From Pleomorphomonas diazotrophica (GTDB taxonomy: Bacteria; Pseudomonadota; Alphaproteobacteria; Rhizobiales; Pleomorphomonadaceae): DNA of 64,000 nucleotides. The notes under the pieces are model-generated. The model was not told where the DNA came from and did no database searches. It worked only from the letters and a program-made list of their open reading frames with translations. The first letter of the stretch is position 1, and every line of letters begins with the position of its first letter. Below are positions 26,097 through 34,052 of this stretch, one piece after another. The position numbers were made by a program, and so were the translations under genes. Where the stretch lies: contig NZ_PJNW01000014.1 in assembly GCF_002844595.1 (NCBI RefSeq), forward strand, positions 124,001-188,000, written 5' to 3'.

Positions 26097-29000
26097 ATGT
26101 CTGCAGTTCTTTCCGAGCCCCTCAGGGCTCCGCGCTTTTCGCCGCCCTATGCAGAGGATGAGACGGCGGTGGTCCGCCGCCTTCTGGCAGCGCGGCCCGA
26201 GGATGCCGAGGGGCGAGCGCGGGTCGATGCGCATGCCAGCCGTCTCATTGCCGCCATTCGCGACGGCAAGTCGGCGATCGGCGGCGTCGAGGACTTCCTG
26301 AAAGCCTATTCGCTGACGACGCGTGAGGGGCTTGCCATCATGGTGATGGCCGAGGCGCTGCTGCGCGTGCCCGATGGCGCCACTGCCGACAAGCTGATCG
26401 AGGACAAGCTGGCCTCCGCCGCCTTCGGCTTCCACGGCAAGGGGGAGGATCCCTGGCTGGTGGCCGCCTCCGGCTGGGCGCTGGGCGTGACGACGCGCGT
26501 GCTGCAACCGGGCGAGACGCCGGAGAATGTCGTCACCGGTCTCGTCAAGCGCCTGGGCATGCCGGCGGTGCGCGCCGCAACGCGTCAGGCCATGAAGATC
26601 ATGGGCCACCAGTTCGTGCTGGGCACCTCGATCGAGGCGGCGCTGTCGCGCGCCAGAAGCCTTGCCGGCAAGGGCTATCGCCATTCCTACGACATGCTGG
26701 GAGAGGGCGCCCGCACGGCGGTCGATGCCGAGCGTTACTTCGCCGATTACGCCAGGGCGATCGAAGCGATCGGCCGGTCGGCAGGTTCCGAGGCGCTGCC
26801 GGCCCGGCCGGGCATTTCTGTCAAGCTCTCCGCCCTGCATCCGCGCTACGAGGCGCTGAACGCCGAACGGGTGGTGACCGAACTGGTGCCAAAGCTGCTG
26901 GAGTTGTCGCGGGCGGCCAAGGCCTATGACCTCAACCTGACCGTCGATGCCGAGGAGGCGGACCGCCTCAAGCTGTCGCTCGACGTCATTGCCGCCGTGG
27001 CCGGCGATCCGTCGCTCGCCGGCTGGGATGGCTTCGGCCTTGCGGTGCAGGCCTATCAGAAGCGGGCGCCGGCGGTGATCGACTATCTGATCGAGCTCGC
27101 CGAAAGCCTCAACCGTCGCTTCATGGTCCGCCTCGTCAAGGGCGCCTATTGGGACACCGAGATGAAGCGCGGGCAGGAGCGCGGCCTTGCCGACTATCCG
27201 CTGTTCACTCGCAAGGCGTCGACCGATCTGTCCTATCTCGTCTGCGCAGACAAGCTGCTCAGAGCCCGGCCGCGCCTCTATCCGCAGTTCGCGACGCACA
27301 ACGCGTTGACCGTGGCCGAGGTGTCGGAGATCGCCGGCACCAACAGGCATTTCGAGTTCCAGCGGCTGCATGGCATGGGAGACACGCTCTATCGCGAGGT
27401 CACCGAGAAGGACGGCCAGCCCTGTCGCATCTACGCGCCGGTCGGCGGCCACAAGGATTTGCTCGCCTATCTCGTCCGCCGTCTTCTGGAAAATGGTGCC
27501 AACTCATCCTTCGTCGCCGCCGTCGGCGATGCCAAAGTGGAGATCTCGACCTTGCTGAAACGTCCCGCCGACGTTCTGGATGGCGGCGACCGCGCCCGTC
27601 ACGCCCGTATTCCGCTGCCTGCCGATCTCTTCGGCTCTCGCCGCAACTCGCGCGGGTTGGAGCTTGCCGACGAGCAGGTGCTTGAGCCACTGTTGACTGC
27701 CATTTCGATGGCGGGCAGCAACTTCGGCACCGCCGCCTCGATCATCGACGGCGTGGACGTGAAGGGCGCGTCGCGTATCCTCCTGTCGCCGATCGATGGC
27801 AAGACGGAAATCGGCCGGGTCATTGACGCCGATGCGGAGACGGCAAGCAAGGCTGTCGCCGCAATGGCGGCCGGCTTCCGTCCATGGTCCGAGACGCTGG
27901 CGGAGACCCGGGCGAGCGTGCTCGAGCGGGCGGCTGACATTCTCGAGGAGCGGCTGCCGGCCTTCCTGGCCGTGTTGGCGCTGGAAGCCGGCAAGACGCT
28001 GGCCGACGGTATCGCCGAAGTGCGCGAGGCCGTCGACTTCTGCCGCTATTACGCCGCCGAGGCGCGGCGGCTGTTCGGGGCGCCGGTCGCCATGCCCGGC
28101 CCGACCGGCGAGGAAAACCGTCTGACCTATCGGGGACGCGGCGTCTTCGCGGCCATCGCTCCTTGGAACTTCCCGCTGGCCATCTTCATGGGCCAGACGG
28201 CGGCAGCGCTGGCCGCCGGCAATACGGTGGTGGCAAAACCCGCCGAGCAGACGCCGCTTGTCGGCGCCATGGCGGTGCGGCTGCTGCACGAGGCCGGCGT
28301 GCCGGCCTCGGCGCTCGCCCTTCTGGTTGGCGACGGCACGGCCGGCGCGGCGCTCACCGCCGATCCGCGCATTGCCGGTGTCGCCTTTACCGGGTCGACC
28401 GACACCGCCTTCGCCATCAACCGGACGCTTGCCGCCAAGCGCGGGCCGATCGTGCCGCTGATCGCCGAGACCGGCGGCCTCAACGCCATGATCGTTGATG
28501 CCACGGCGCTCGGCGAGCAGGTGACCGACGACGTCATCACCTCGGCCTTCCGTTCGGCCGGCCAGCGCTGCTCGGCGCTCAGGCTGCTGTTCGTGCAGGA
28601 GGATGTCGCGGACCACATGATCGGCCTCATCAAGGGCGCGGCAGCCGAGCTCAAGGTCGGTGACCCGCGCCGCCCGGACACCGACCTGGGCCCGATCATC
28701 GATCGCGAGCAGACCGAGAAGCTCGCCATTCACGTGGCGGCCTGGCAGGGCAAGGGCGGCGTGCTGTTCTCGGGCGAGGCGCCCGGAGACACCTTGGCGG
28801 GCGGTACCTATTTCCCGCCGGTGATCATCGAACTGCCGGACGCCGAGGCGCTCGATCGCGAGGTGTTCGGCCCGGTGCTGCATGTCGTCCGCTACAAGGC
28901 GAAGGATCTCGACAGGATCATCGAGAGCATCGCGGCGAGCGGCTACGGCCTGACGCTCGGCATCCACTCGCGCATCGAGGCGACGGTGAAGCGCATCGTC

Positions 29001-29213
29001 GAGCGTCTGCCGGTCGGCAACGTCTACGTCAATCGCAACATGATTGGCGCGGTGGTCGGTTCGCAGCCCTTCGGTGGTTCGGGGCTTTCCGGCACCGGTC
29101 CCAAGGCGGGCGGACCCAACTATCTCACCCGCTTCGCGCTGGAACAGGTGGTGTCGATCAACACGGCGGCGGCCGGCGGCAATGCGACGCTGGTCGCCAT
29201 GGGTGACGACTGA
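26097..29213 (+). CDS. putA: Bifunctional proline dehydrogenase / L-glutamate-gamma-semialdehyde dehydrogenase
   Basis: Protein of 1038 residues that oxidises proline to glutamate in two coupled steps at the inner-membrane face. The FAD barrel domain spans about 80-480 with KLSALHPRYE, RLVKGAYWD and QRLHGMG; the NAD-linked aldehyde dehydrogenase fills about 550-1030 with APWNFPLAIF, FTGSTDTAF, general-base Glu near 791 (AETGGLNAM) and nucleophile Cys near 825 (GQRCSALR). No ribbon-helix-helix domain at the N-terminus, so this is the non-autoregulating type. A terminator follows at 29241. Confidence 0.96.
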   Translation: MSAVLSEPLRAPRFSPPYAEDETAVVRRLLAARPEDAEGRARVDAHASRLIAAIRDGKSAIGGVEDFLKAYSLTTREGLAIMVMAEALLRVPDGATADKLIEDKLASAAFGFHGKGEDPWLVAASGWALGVTTRVLQPGETPENVVTGLVKRLGMPAVRAATRQAMKIMGHQFVLGTSIEAALSRARSLAGKGYRHSYDMLGEGARTAVDAERYFADYARAIEAIGRSAGSEALPARPGISVKLSALHPRYEALNAERVVTELVPKLLELSRAAKAYDLNLTVDAEEADRLKLSLDVIAAVAGDPSLAGWDGFGLAVQAYQKRAPAVIDYLIELAESLNRRFMVRLVKGAYWDTEMKRGQERGLADYPLFTRKASTDLSYLVCADKLLRARPRLYPQFATHNALTVAEVSEIAGTNRHFEFQRLHGMGDTLYREVTEKDGQPCRIYAPVGGHKDLLAYLVRRLLENGANSSFVAAVGDAKVEISTLLKRPADVLDGGDRARHARIPLPADLFGSRRNSRGLELADEQVLEPLLTAISMAGSNFGTAASIIDGVDVKGASRILLSPIDGKTEIGRVIDADAETASKAVAAMAAGFRPWSETLAETRASVLERAADILEERLPAFLAVLALEAGKTLADGIAEVREAVDFCRYYAAEARRLFGAPVAMPGPTGEENRLTYRGRGVFAAIAPWNFPLAIFMGQTAAALAAGNTVVAKPAEQTPLVGAMAVRLLHEAGVPASALALLVGDGTAGAALTADPRIAGVAFTGSTDTAFAINRTLAAKRGPIVPLIAETGGLNAMIVDATALGEQVTDDVITSAFRSAGQRCSALRLLFVQEDVADHMIGLIKGAAAELKVGDPRRPDTDLGPIIDREQTEKLAIHVAAWQGKGGVLFSGEAPGDTLAGGTYFPPVIIELPDAEALDREVFGPVLHVVRYKAKDLDRIIESIAASGYGLTLGIHSRIEATVKRIVERLPVGNVYVNRNMIGAVVGSQPFGGSGLSGTGPKAGGPNYLTRFALEQVVSINTAAAGGNATLVAMGDD

Positions 29214-29290: not shown

Positions 29291-29318
29291 AAAAAAACAG
29301 GCCGGGGTTACCGGCCTG
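29291..29318 (-). terminator. Minus-strand intrinsic terminator
   Basis: Perfect 8-bp stem CAGGCCGG/CCGGCCTG with a TAACC loop on the minus strand followed by seven Ts. It is pointed away from mtgA and against putA, so neither neighbour explains it. Confidence 0.85.
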
Positions 29319-29402
29319 AGTTCTGGGAGGAAAGCTGGAGTGCCACGGTGGATCAGGAGGAAGATCCAGACGGAAGACCGACGAAGCAGCGCTCACAAGT
29401 CA
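29291..29402 (-). ncRNA. Candidate anti-Shine-Dalgarno small RNA
   Basis: Read on the minus strand, a hairpin TGGATC-TTCCTCCT-GATCCA (29368-29349) presents an eight-base loop complementary to ribosome binding sites. A second pyrimidine run CTTTCCTCCCAG (29334-29323, containing CTCCCA) follows, then an 8-bp perfect hairpin CAGGCCGG/CCGGCCTG and seven Ts (29297-29291), a textbook intrinsic terminator. No minus-strand protein gene lies upstream, so the terminator must serve a transcript starting in this gap. TTGACA at 29437-29432 suggests a start near 29402, but the matching -10 is poor. Layout resembles the alphaproteobacterial AbcR/ar14/ar15-type or CcsR-like RNAs; family membership is unproven. 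Confidence 0.6.
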
Positions 29403-29615
29403 AAGGTCTCACGCTGCCTTAATTCGCGCCATGTCAAAATTGAAGCATCGCCGTATAAAAAGCGGGCACTTGCTGTTTTTCTCGGCTAACTGGGCACCTC
29501 GCCTCCGAAAAACGGCTCCATGTCGATTGGGACCGAACGAGCTCCCGACCGTTTTTCCCCTTGTTTGCCGGGTCGGCGCTGTTGGTTTATGAGAACACGG
29601 ACAGGCGGGTGGAGC

Positions 29616-30359
29616 ATGAGCGATCTCAGCGAGGCGATGGCCGAGGGCGAGCCGACGGCGGATGATGGGGAGGCGGCGGCTGTGAGGCGGGCTGGCTGGC
29701 GGATCTGGCTCAAACGGCTGTCACTGGCCGCGGCCGTGGTGGTCGTGCTGCCTTTCGTGCTGACGCCGCTTTATCTCTTTGCCCGCCCCGTTTCGACGCT
29801 GATGGTCTGGGACCTTCTGACGCTTCAAGGCTACAGCCGGCAATGGGTCGATCTCGACGACATTTCGCCAAGCATGAAGCAGGCCGTGGTCATGAGCGAG
29901 GACGGGCAGTTCTGCTTTCACGACGGGGTCGATTGGGAACAGCTTCGCTCGGTGCTGAGCCGCGACGGTGGACCAAGCCGGGGGGCGAGCACCATCACCA
30001 TGCAGACGGTGAAGAACGTCTTCCTGTGGCCGTCGCGTTCCTATATCCGCAAGGGCCTCGAAATCCCGCTGGCGCTCTACGCCGATCTCGTCTGGTCGAA
30101 GCGCCGAACGCTGGAGATCTATCTCAACATCGCCGAGCTCGGTCCCAACGTCTACGGCGTCGAGGCGGCGGCGCAGCATTACTACAAGAAGCCGGCGTCC
30201 AAGCTGAGCCGGCGCGAGGCGGCGCTGATTGCGGCTGCCCTGCCCAATCCGGCCATCCGCAATCCCCTGAAGCCCAGCCGCGCGCAGAAGACGCTGTCGC
30301 GCATCATCGAGCGCCGCGTCAGCCAATCGGGCGCCTATGTCGAGTGCCTGCAGCCATGA
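29616..30359 (+). CDS. mtgA: Monofunctional biosynthetic peptidoglycan transglycosylase
   Basis: Glycosyltransferase family 51 enzyme of 247 residues that polymerises lipid II into glycan strands. A cytoplasmic tail and single membrane anchor (about 36-58) precede the GT51 domain, which shows the catalytic Glu in VVMSEDGQFCFHDGVDW, then RGASTITMQTVKNVFLWPSRSYIRKGLEIPLA, and EIYLNIAELGPNVYGVEAAAQHYY (each motif as separate blocks in the standard order). No transpeptidase domain. Start MSDLSEAMAEGEP at 29616 gives family length; an ATG 32 codons upstream is open but lacks support. Confidence 0.92.
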   Translation: MSDLSEAMAEGEPTADDGEAAAVRRAGWRIWLKRLSLAAAVVVVLPFVLTPLYLFARPVSTLMVWDLLTLQGYSRQWVDLDDISPSMKQAVVMSEDGQFCFHDGVDWEQLRSVLSRDGGPSRGASTITMQTVKNVFLWPSRSYIRKGLEIPLALYADLVWSKRRTLEIYLNIAELGPNVYGVEAAAQHYYKKPASKLSRREAALIAAALPNPAIRNPLKPSRAQKTLSRIIERRVSQSGAYVECLQP

Positions 30360-33244: not shown

Positions 33245-33811
33245 CTACTTGGTTTCCGGCGCCAGCCGGTCGAGTCGCCGCCGCATGGCCTCCAGTTCGT
33301 CGCGCAGCGCGTCGATGTCGGCGGCGCGGCTTTCGGCGGGGCTCGCCTCTTCCTCCGGGGCCTCGCCGGGCAGTGCGGCGCGCACCGCCCGCTCAAAGGA
33401 TTCGGCGTTGAGCCGGACCTGTTCCCCCAGCTTCTCGCTGAGGGCGGGGGCACCGAGCGCCTCACCGGCGATGCCGCGCATCTTGCCCTGCTCCCGGGCG
33501 AACTGGCCGATCGAATACTCGAGAAAGGCCGGCACCATGGCCTGCAACTCGTCGCCATAGAAGCGGATGAGCTGGCGCAGGAAGTTGACGGGCAGCAGAT
33601 GGGGCCCCCGCGTCTCTTCCTCGAGGATGATCTGGGTCAGCACCTCATGGGTGATCTCCTGGTCGCTTCGGGCGTCGATCACCACGAAGTCGGTGTTGGC
33701 GCGCACCATGGCGGCGAGATCCTGCAGCGTGACGTAGCTCGACGTACCCGTGTCGTAGAGACGCCGGTTGGCGTATTTCCGGATGACGGTGCCTTGCCTC
33801 GTCCTGGACAT
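33245..33811 (-). CDS. phaR: Polyhydroxyalkanoate synthesis repressor PhaR
   Basis: Regulator of 188 residues that binds PHB granules and DNA. N-terminal PHB accumulation domain VIRKYANRRLYDTGTSSYVTL and FVVIDARSDQEITHEVLTQII are unmistakable; a second domain LPVNFLRQLIRFYGDELQAMVPAFLEYS follows, then an acidic/Arg coiled tail. Start MSRTRQGTVIRKYANRR at 33811; the reading frame stays open far upstream without coding features. No phasin or PHB synthase gene is nearby; the repressor probably acts elsewhere and on itself. Confidence 0.93.
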   Translation of the reverse strand: MSRTRQGTVIRKYANRRLYDTGTSSYVTLQDLAAMVRANTDFVVIDARSDQEITHEVLTQIILEEETRGPHLLPVNFLRQLIRFYGDELQAMVPAFLEYSIGQFAREQGKMRGIAGEALGAPALSEKLGEQVRLNAESFERAVRAALPGEAPEEEASPAESRAADIDALRDELEAMRRRLDRLAPETK

Positions 33812-33870
33812 CGGGAGCCTCTTGAACTTCGCCGCGCTCCACCGCGACGCACCCCAACATAGGCGTAATG

Positions 33871-33881
33871 GTGCAGCGCAG
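33871..33881. promoter_or_regulatory. Candidate PhaR operator
   Basis: GTGCAGCGCAG differs by one base from the CTGC-N3-GCAG element described for PhaR of phototrophic alphaproteobacteria. It lies 60 bp upstream of phaR, fitting autoregulation. A single short site in GC-rich DNA is weak evidence. Confidence 0.3.
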
Positions 33882-34052
33882 CCAAGCCTTTCGCTTTGCA
33901 CCTGTCGTTCTTTTGCAGTGCGGTAGAAGGCTTCTCCCAACGGATAGGCAGAGAAAGATGCCAAAAGCTGAAAGGACTGGTATTGTCGATGCTTGCACCG
34001 GATTTCGGAGGGAAAACGGTGCGGCCAGAGGGCGTCGGGGGATCGGGGAGGC

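Follow-up and report, generated by a model that had tools for sequence, protein, structure and literature searches.

The minus strand at positions 29291-29402 of the window (the whole 64,000-nucleotide stretch of Pleomorphomonas diazotrophica DNA that was analysed) is, judging from its sequence, very probably the gene for a small regulatory RNA. We consider it likely that this RNA is a divergent sibling of the alpha-r8 RNAs (MmgR/SisA) with two anti-Shine-Dalgarno (anti-SD) arms, which represses mRNAs for sugar import; among the genomes searched, only those of the Pleomorphomonas family yielded it. An annotation that relies on Rfam alone would overlook the RNA, because its score lies below the Rfam cut-off. 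An earlier note on this DNA had read the locus as an orphan small RNA with two exposed anti-SD stretches, of the ar14/ar15 family and linked to putA; the RNA and its anti-SD stretches agree with our analysis, and the family assignment and the putA link do not.

Structure and conservation of the mtgA-linked RNA

The gene body spans 29291..29405 on the minus strand, with the RNA start placed at about 29400-29406 and the end set at the T tract. The conserved block in same-genus genomes also ends at about 29291, and a covariance model of the RNA's own (window copy plus 13 relatives) matches 29291-29405. In the predicted structure, an outer stem (29335..29398, arms 29398-29386 and 29346-29335) encloses two hairpins. 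The 6-bp anti-SD hairpin TGGATC-TTCCTCCT-GATCCA (29349..29368) exposes the loop UUCCUCCU (29362-29355), which contains CCUCC, while a single-stranded, alpha-r8-like core, CUUUCCUCCCAGAACU (29319..29334), holds the second anti-SD run TTTCCTCCCA, the equivalent UUUCCUCCCA of the alpha-r8 10-mer (29333-29324). Then comes an intrinsic terminator (29291..29318) composed of the stem CAGGCCGG/CCGGCCTG at 29318-29298 and a 7-T tract at 29297-29291. All of these elements are read on the minus strand. The RNA folds at -39 kcal/mol (z -3.4), and none of 200 shuffles folded as well. A protein-coding reading was rejected on the basis of 1-2 nt indels among relatives and the lack of any ATG in the window copy.

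The terminator points leftwards on the minus strand, and both flanking genes lie on the plus strand: putA (26097..29213, NF008869 over cut-off), convergent with the RNA in this genome, and mtgA (29616..30359, monofunctional peptidoglycan transglycosylase, TIGR02070 over cut-off), divergent from it. The minus-strand orphan RNA of the earlier note, with a terminator directed away from nearby genes, is thus recovered here, as are its 6-bp hairpin (29368-29349) and its second anti-SD run.

A homology search with a 241-base query against 40 genomes found the RNA stretch in all 14 Pleomorphomonas genomes, the window's own counted, with E values no higher than 7e-18. Four further family genomes, G016-G019, match in the 3' part of the stretch with E of at most 1e-4; after the family genomes, the next best among the matches listed begin at E 0.046. 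There is one copy of the mtgA-linked RNA per genome. None of the 14 genus genomes shows any change in the core UUUCCUCCCAGAACU, in the terminator stem or in the loop's CCUCC. Over the whole structure, 98.3% of cells are paired in the alignment of the 14 genus rows, 12 of them distinct, a percentage biased toward the structure because the latter was derived from the window's own sequence. Changes on both sides of a pair, of the compensatory kind that the earlier note had proposed to look for in relatives, occur in five pairs among the 12 distinct rows, and four of these five are among the six pairs of the anti-SD hairpin; they stem from three rows (L013 and L014 with two each, L008 with one). 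None of 500 shuffles scored as high, and slid controls gave 0-1. The outer stem is paired in 98.5% of cells and has no pair changed on both sides. The RNAalifold consensus consists of the same stems plus a four-pair extension of the terminator that uses the U tract.

This conservation bears on the simplest alternative, that a stray terminator beside a chance C-rich sequence gives the appearance of an RNA gene. Terminator-like sites are not rare here: the pattern scan that found the terminator reported three such sites in 1.7 kb where 1.1 would be expected, and the terminator by itself would thus not be significant. However, the structure, the core and the promoter element are conserved over the genus, and we regard a stray terminator as extremely improbable.

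Beyond the genus, our model of the 14 genus copies picks up the copies in G016 (E 4e-8), in G014, which belongs to another genus of the same family (E 2e-7), and in G017 (E 0.002). Seven of 150 genomes of the order match our own model under strict filters, by which weak homologues may be lost: G014, G016, G017, the window's own and three more (G116, G155 and G080), which we did not count because each is just a terminator that lacks the core. The folds predicted for G016 and G017 have the core partly paired, and genus g6 (G018, G019) keeps the core and not the 5' CCUCC. The family RNA was not found in G015, whose genome is 86% complete; upstream of mtgA in that genome, a CCCUCCCAGACUU stretch with a terminator (L159) lies in the same orientation as mtgA.

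In 17 of 20 family genomes the RNA and mtgA are divergent neighbours; in G016 and G017 the homologous RNA, which retains most of the core, is located away from mtgA. Among the nine neighbourhoods examined besides the window's own, putA adjoins the RNA in four (G003, G005, G007 and G012); it is absent beside the RNA in three of eight mtgA-linked genomes (G006, G018 and G019, with the window's own counted in the eight). Since the mtgA linkage is kept where putA is missing, the stable neighbour is mtgA, not putA, and the link with proline metabolism that the earlier note drew from putA is not supported. The linkage appears to be confined to the family: 42 non-family genomes had an MtgA match, and a motif scan of 27 loci taken from among them (L170-L196) found no RNA beside mtgA, cmscan covering 16 of the 27.

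These neighbourhoods also speak to a cis-acting element, i.e. a leader, attenuator or antisense RNA of putA, mtgA or lrp. The RNA does adjoin putA and mtgA, and in the three genomes without putA, lrp is the next recognised downstream gene on the RNA's strand. However, the two genes that flank it in the window lie on the opposite strand, its terminator comes ahead of any gene, lrp is still some 0.3-0.7 kb away in the genomes that lack putA there, and the homologue in G016 and G017 is away from mtgA altogether. We consider a cis element very improbable.

Two other features of the region were seen in passing. Some genomes have putA between lrp and mtgA and others lack it there (window 26097-29213; L133, L135, L136), so it has been gained or lost at that place. 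A gene for PhaR, the polyhydroxyalkanoate synthesis repressor (33245-33940, minus strand, TIGR01848 132.9 bits), lies at a distance of 4 kb; in Sinorhizobium, MmgR acts on PHB.

Upstream of the RNA, a promoter-like element TTTGACATGGCGCGAATTAAGGCA (29415..29438, minus strand) contains a -35-like TTGACA (29437-29432) and no good -10, as had been noted before, and a pattern scan found no sigma-70-type promoter at the locus. Where a -10 would be expected there is a conserved TTGACATGGC..GGCA element. Of the 13 genus genomes searched, 12 (all but G007) contain TTTGACATGGCGCGAATTGAGGCA exactly once, at the RNA gene, when up to three mismatches are allowed, and 8 genomes of other families do not contain it at all; the alignment places the element in G013 too, which was outside that search, and the G014 copy has a similar one. 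TGGC..GGCA resembles a sigma-54 -24/-12 pair, in which the GG-GC spacing is 10. We do not claim a sigma-54 promoter, as the spacing here is 11.

Further upstream, an exact TGC-N11-GCA dyad is present in 9 of 19 homologous upstream regions, two of them near-identical and the window's own not among the nine; its distance from the RNA varies, and spacings of 7-10 and 12-15 give 0-1. The TGC-N11-GCA spacing resembles that of NtrC sites. At the corresponding place in the window (29452..29468, minus strand) the right half is degenerate, for which reason we treat the NtrC-like dyad as a hint alone. The accessible part of one report describes induction of MmgR by NtrC (PMC7143759). We presume that the RNA is transcribed and that a signal controls it.

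Kinship with alpha-r8

The whole window has no match at Rfam gathering scores. In a permissive scan of 361 nt with all Rfam 15 families, the best match was suhB (RF00519, MmgR) at 25.2 bits (E 0.0032), short of the suhB gathering score of 41 bits; when 28 kb were scanned, the same match had E 0.25, so the suhB score alone is weak evidence of kinship. At least 10 genus copies score 22.8-28.5 bits against suhB among the matches listed. The core and the ACU align to UUUcCUCCCUAgACUU of the suhB model.

The argument for kinship comes from the distribution of a core pattern, from a bridging copy in G014 and from the matches of our own model described above. The pattern TTTCCTCCC-N1-4-ACT-N15-45-T6 matches in 28 of 40 genomes and its reverse in none. 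Each of the pattern matches listed is either the mtgA-linked RNA or a suhB match over cut-off, though the pattern misses some copies, such as the canonical alpha-r8 of the window's genome with its broken T run. In G014, the RNA likewise lies next to mtgA and is divergent from it, carries the exact alpha-r8 10-mer UUUCCUCCCU, followed by GACUU, and a long 5' hairpin with CCUCCC, and scores 37.6 bits against suhB.

Compared with that 10-mer, the window copy (UUUCCUCCCA) has 9 of 10 bases, the tenth being A instead of U, and continues with GAACU. This last base is not strict in alpha-r8, since a 70.5-bit suhB match in G018 also has A. A Rho-independent terminator stands shortly 3' of the core, as in alpha-r8. 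The weak hairpin that alpha-r8 RNAs have directly 5' of the 10-mer is missing (in alignments it is poorly formed or cut out), its position being occupied by the outer stem of another domain. On these sequence features we regard the RNA as kin to alpha-r8, and we do not file it as a member because it failed three of the features tested: the gathering score, the exact 10-mer and the weak hairpin.

The earlier note had favoured an AbcR/ar15, ar14 or CcsR-type RNA, with which the anti-SD loops and importer-type sites would be features in common. Neither ar14 nor ar15 matched in the 361-nt scan, which went up to E 10 (the Rfam 15 library presumably includes the ar14 model), and the closest family was suhB/MmgR/alpha-r8. 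The locus falls short of ar15/AbcR (RF02345, gathering score 40 bits), whose own gene has another place in this genome and scores 42.5 bits, over cut-off (G000:C38:73895-74030:+, L312). We therefore find an RNA of these types very improbable. The L312 locus also gives a weak suhB match.

The window's genome contains further loci of this kind. A canonical alpha-r8 RNA (G000:C37:120077-120153:-, L311) scores 62 bits, and by eye its upstream region is unlike that of the mtgA-linked RNA. A sub-threshold suhB match of 29.8 bits (G000:C37:38387-38463:-, L313) has two hairpins, a CGCCUCCCU stretch and a terminator, and is perhaps another anti-SD RNA.

Predicted targets and mode of action

To the core side of the RNA corresponds the 13-mer TTCTGGGAGGAAA, complement of UUUCCUCCCAGAA, which occurs at 26 places in the 14 genus genomes; the reversed pattern occurs at none. 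Fourteen of these places are the RNA gene itself. The other 12 all lie 2-6 nt before the ATG of open frames of at least 355 aa, and 11 of the 12 precede transporter genes. Seven belong to one orthologous gene for a 431-aa binding protein, and these seven are not independent, as they may be alike by descent. The protein matches SBP_bac_8 over cut-off in two of four orthologues scanned, the other two having no Pfam match at E 1e-5; there is a weak NCBIfam MalE match, far below cut-off, and an ABC permease gene is adjacent. One further orthologue was seen, in G002, where the match is 10 bases. The remaining five sites precede genes for two other binding proteins, an ABC ATPase, an MFS transporter and one Rieske oxygenase. 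Complementary sites before transporter genes are what the trans action on importer mRNAs suggested by the earlier note would predict, and such action is probable.

The core alone gives a larger set. The pattern TGGGAGGAAA-N2-9-ATG has 33 matches in 8 genomes; 30 loci were examined and one frame was too short, leaving 29 proteins, of which 20 are involved in transport and four are L-rhamnose isomerase. A one-letter control, AGGGAGGAAA, has 28 matches, and after five short frames were dropped, 4 of 23 proteins are involved in transport (Fisher p 0.0003); with orthologues merged by eye, the comparison is 13/19 against 4/18 (p 0.008). The control set also includes sugar-catabolism genes, and strong SDs such as GGGAGGAAA may in any case be frequent ahead of importer genes. 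TTC precedes the core match at 7 of 30 T sites and at 1 of 51 control sites (p 0.003), three of the seven being orthologues. The four T sites in the window's genome lie before genes for two binding proteins, an ABC ATPase and L-rhamnose isomerase.

For the loop, the complement TCAGGAGGAA-N2-9-ATG was matched 23 times in 8 genomes; in 7 of these cases the frame that follows is shorter than 50 aa. Two genes recur behind such sites, both of them in 5 of 8 genomes: one for an RbsD/FucU-family protein and one for a lactaldehyde reductase. The window's genome has loop sites before these two genes and nowhere else.

Pairing energies were computed for the two exposed segments and not for the full length, since full-length duplex energies are driven by the GC-rich terminator arms. 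Against 173 background sites, which have guessed starts and include some targets, the core ranks putA 136, mtgA 47 and lrp 122, and the loop ranks them 104, 20 and 92, respectively. Neither putA nor lrp pairs better than background with either arm, and mtgA is only a moderate candidate target for the loop. The canonical alpha-r8 RNA of the same genome also pairs with the target sites, mostly less well; the sites were picked by complementarity, so their energies are partly by construction.

We propose that 29291-29405 (minus strand) encodes a trans-acting small RNA whose first exposed anti-SD arm would be the hairpin loop and whose second would be the single-stranded core before the terminator. 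The core, and perhaps the loop too, would base-pair with the ribosome-binding sites of mRNAs for sugar uptake and catabolism, presumably with the help of Hfq, and mRNAs for the substrate-binding proteins of importers would be the first targets. Pairing there would block translation. By analogy with SisA, blocked ribosome binding on importer and sugar-catabolism mRNAs is the most likely mechanism: the accessible part of a Caulobacter study reports that SisA represses transporter mRNAs through the core, and represses 8 of 10 tested fusions with predicted pairing through that same core (PMC12559287).

The same source, as far as it is available, describes CrfA as a sponge RNA for SisA that acts on the same core (PMC12559287), and such precedents favour a real RNA that mainly serves as a sponge or decoy for another RNA, or sequesters something else. 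However, the RNA described here carries the C-rich side, as SisA does, rather than the G/A-rich side of a sponge such as CrfA, and the complement of its 13-mer occurs before transporter start codons. We judge a sponge role unlikely and retain repression of sugar-import mRNAs by an alpha-r8 sibling as our reading.

A further step is possible but doubtful. The shift of the core end from UUUCCUCCCU to UUUCCUCCCA-GAA may have re-aimed the RNA from A-GGGAGGAAA to T-GGGAGGAAA sites, which would tend to mark importer genes in Pleomorphomonas. The added, structurally maintained anti-SD loop may have widened its targets to the FucU-like and lactaldehyde reductase genes, a further set with TCAGGAGGAA sites. 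A single RNA under an unusual promoter of its own could then tune sugar import and deoxysugar catabolism jointly, apart from standard alpha-r8 and AbcR. This reading is made less likely by the canonical alpha-r8 RNA of G018, whose tenth core base is likewise A.

Comparison with known small RNAs

On sequence grounds, we regard the RNA as a lineage-specific relative of a known RNA family, not a new kind. An open-literature search found no publication on small RNAs of Pleomorphomonas and, among the matches listed, none pairing mtgA with mmgR.

AbcR targets ABC-importer mRNAs. AbcR/alpha-r15 (RF02345) has anti-SD elements in common with the mtgA-linked RNA, but it is a separate gene elsewhere in the same genome and gives no match at the locus. 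CcsR RNAs come in several tandem copies with CCUCCUCCC loops. PmaR of Agrobacterium, as described in the accessible part of its report, shares lineage restriction and a C-rich loop with our RNA, whereas its structure and targets are unlike, and its interacting sequence is there stated not to be an anti-SD region (PMC6234868); we rejected it as a relative.

The closest comparison is with alpha-r8 itself (MmgR of Sinorhizobium meliloti, SisA-D of Caulobacter crescentus; RF00519). Both have the UUUCCUCCC core, single-stranded after a structured 5' part, with the ACU and then an intrinsic terminator; genomes with alpha-r8 RNAs commonly hold more than one copy, as here, and SisA has transporter targets, as predicted for the mtgA-linked RNA. 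Unlike alpha-r8, the mtgA-linked RNA is without the weak GCCC..GGGC hairpin directly 5' of the core, has a different 5' half with an extra domain that bears its own anti-SD loop, and adjoins mtgA with its own promoter element. The available text of the Caulobacter study describes alpha-r8 RNAs as widespread in Alphaproteobacteria and the redundancy of siblings as an open question (PMC12559287). The mtgA-linked locus offers a natural experiment in which a changed core end, a second seed and a separate promoter element would come together, along with a short list of predicted targets that have a 13-base match.
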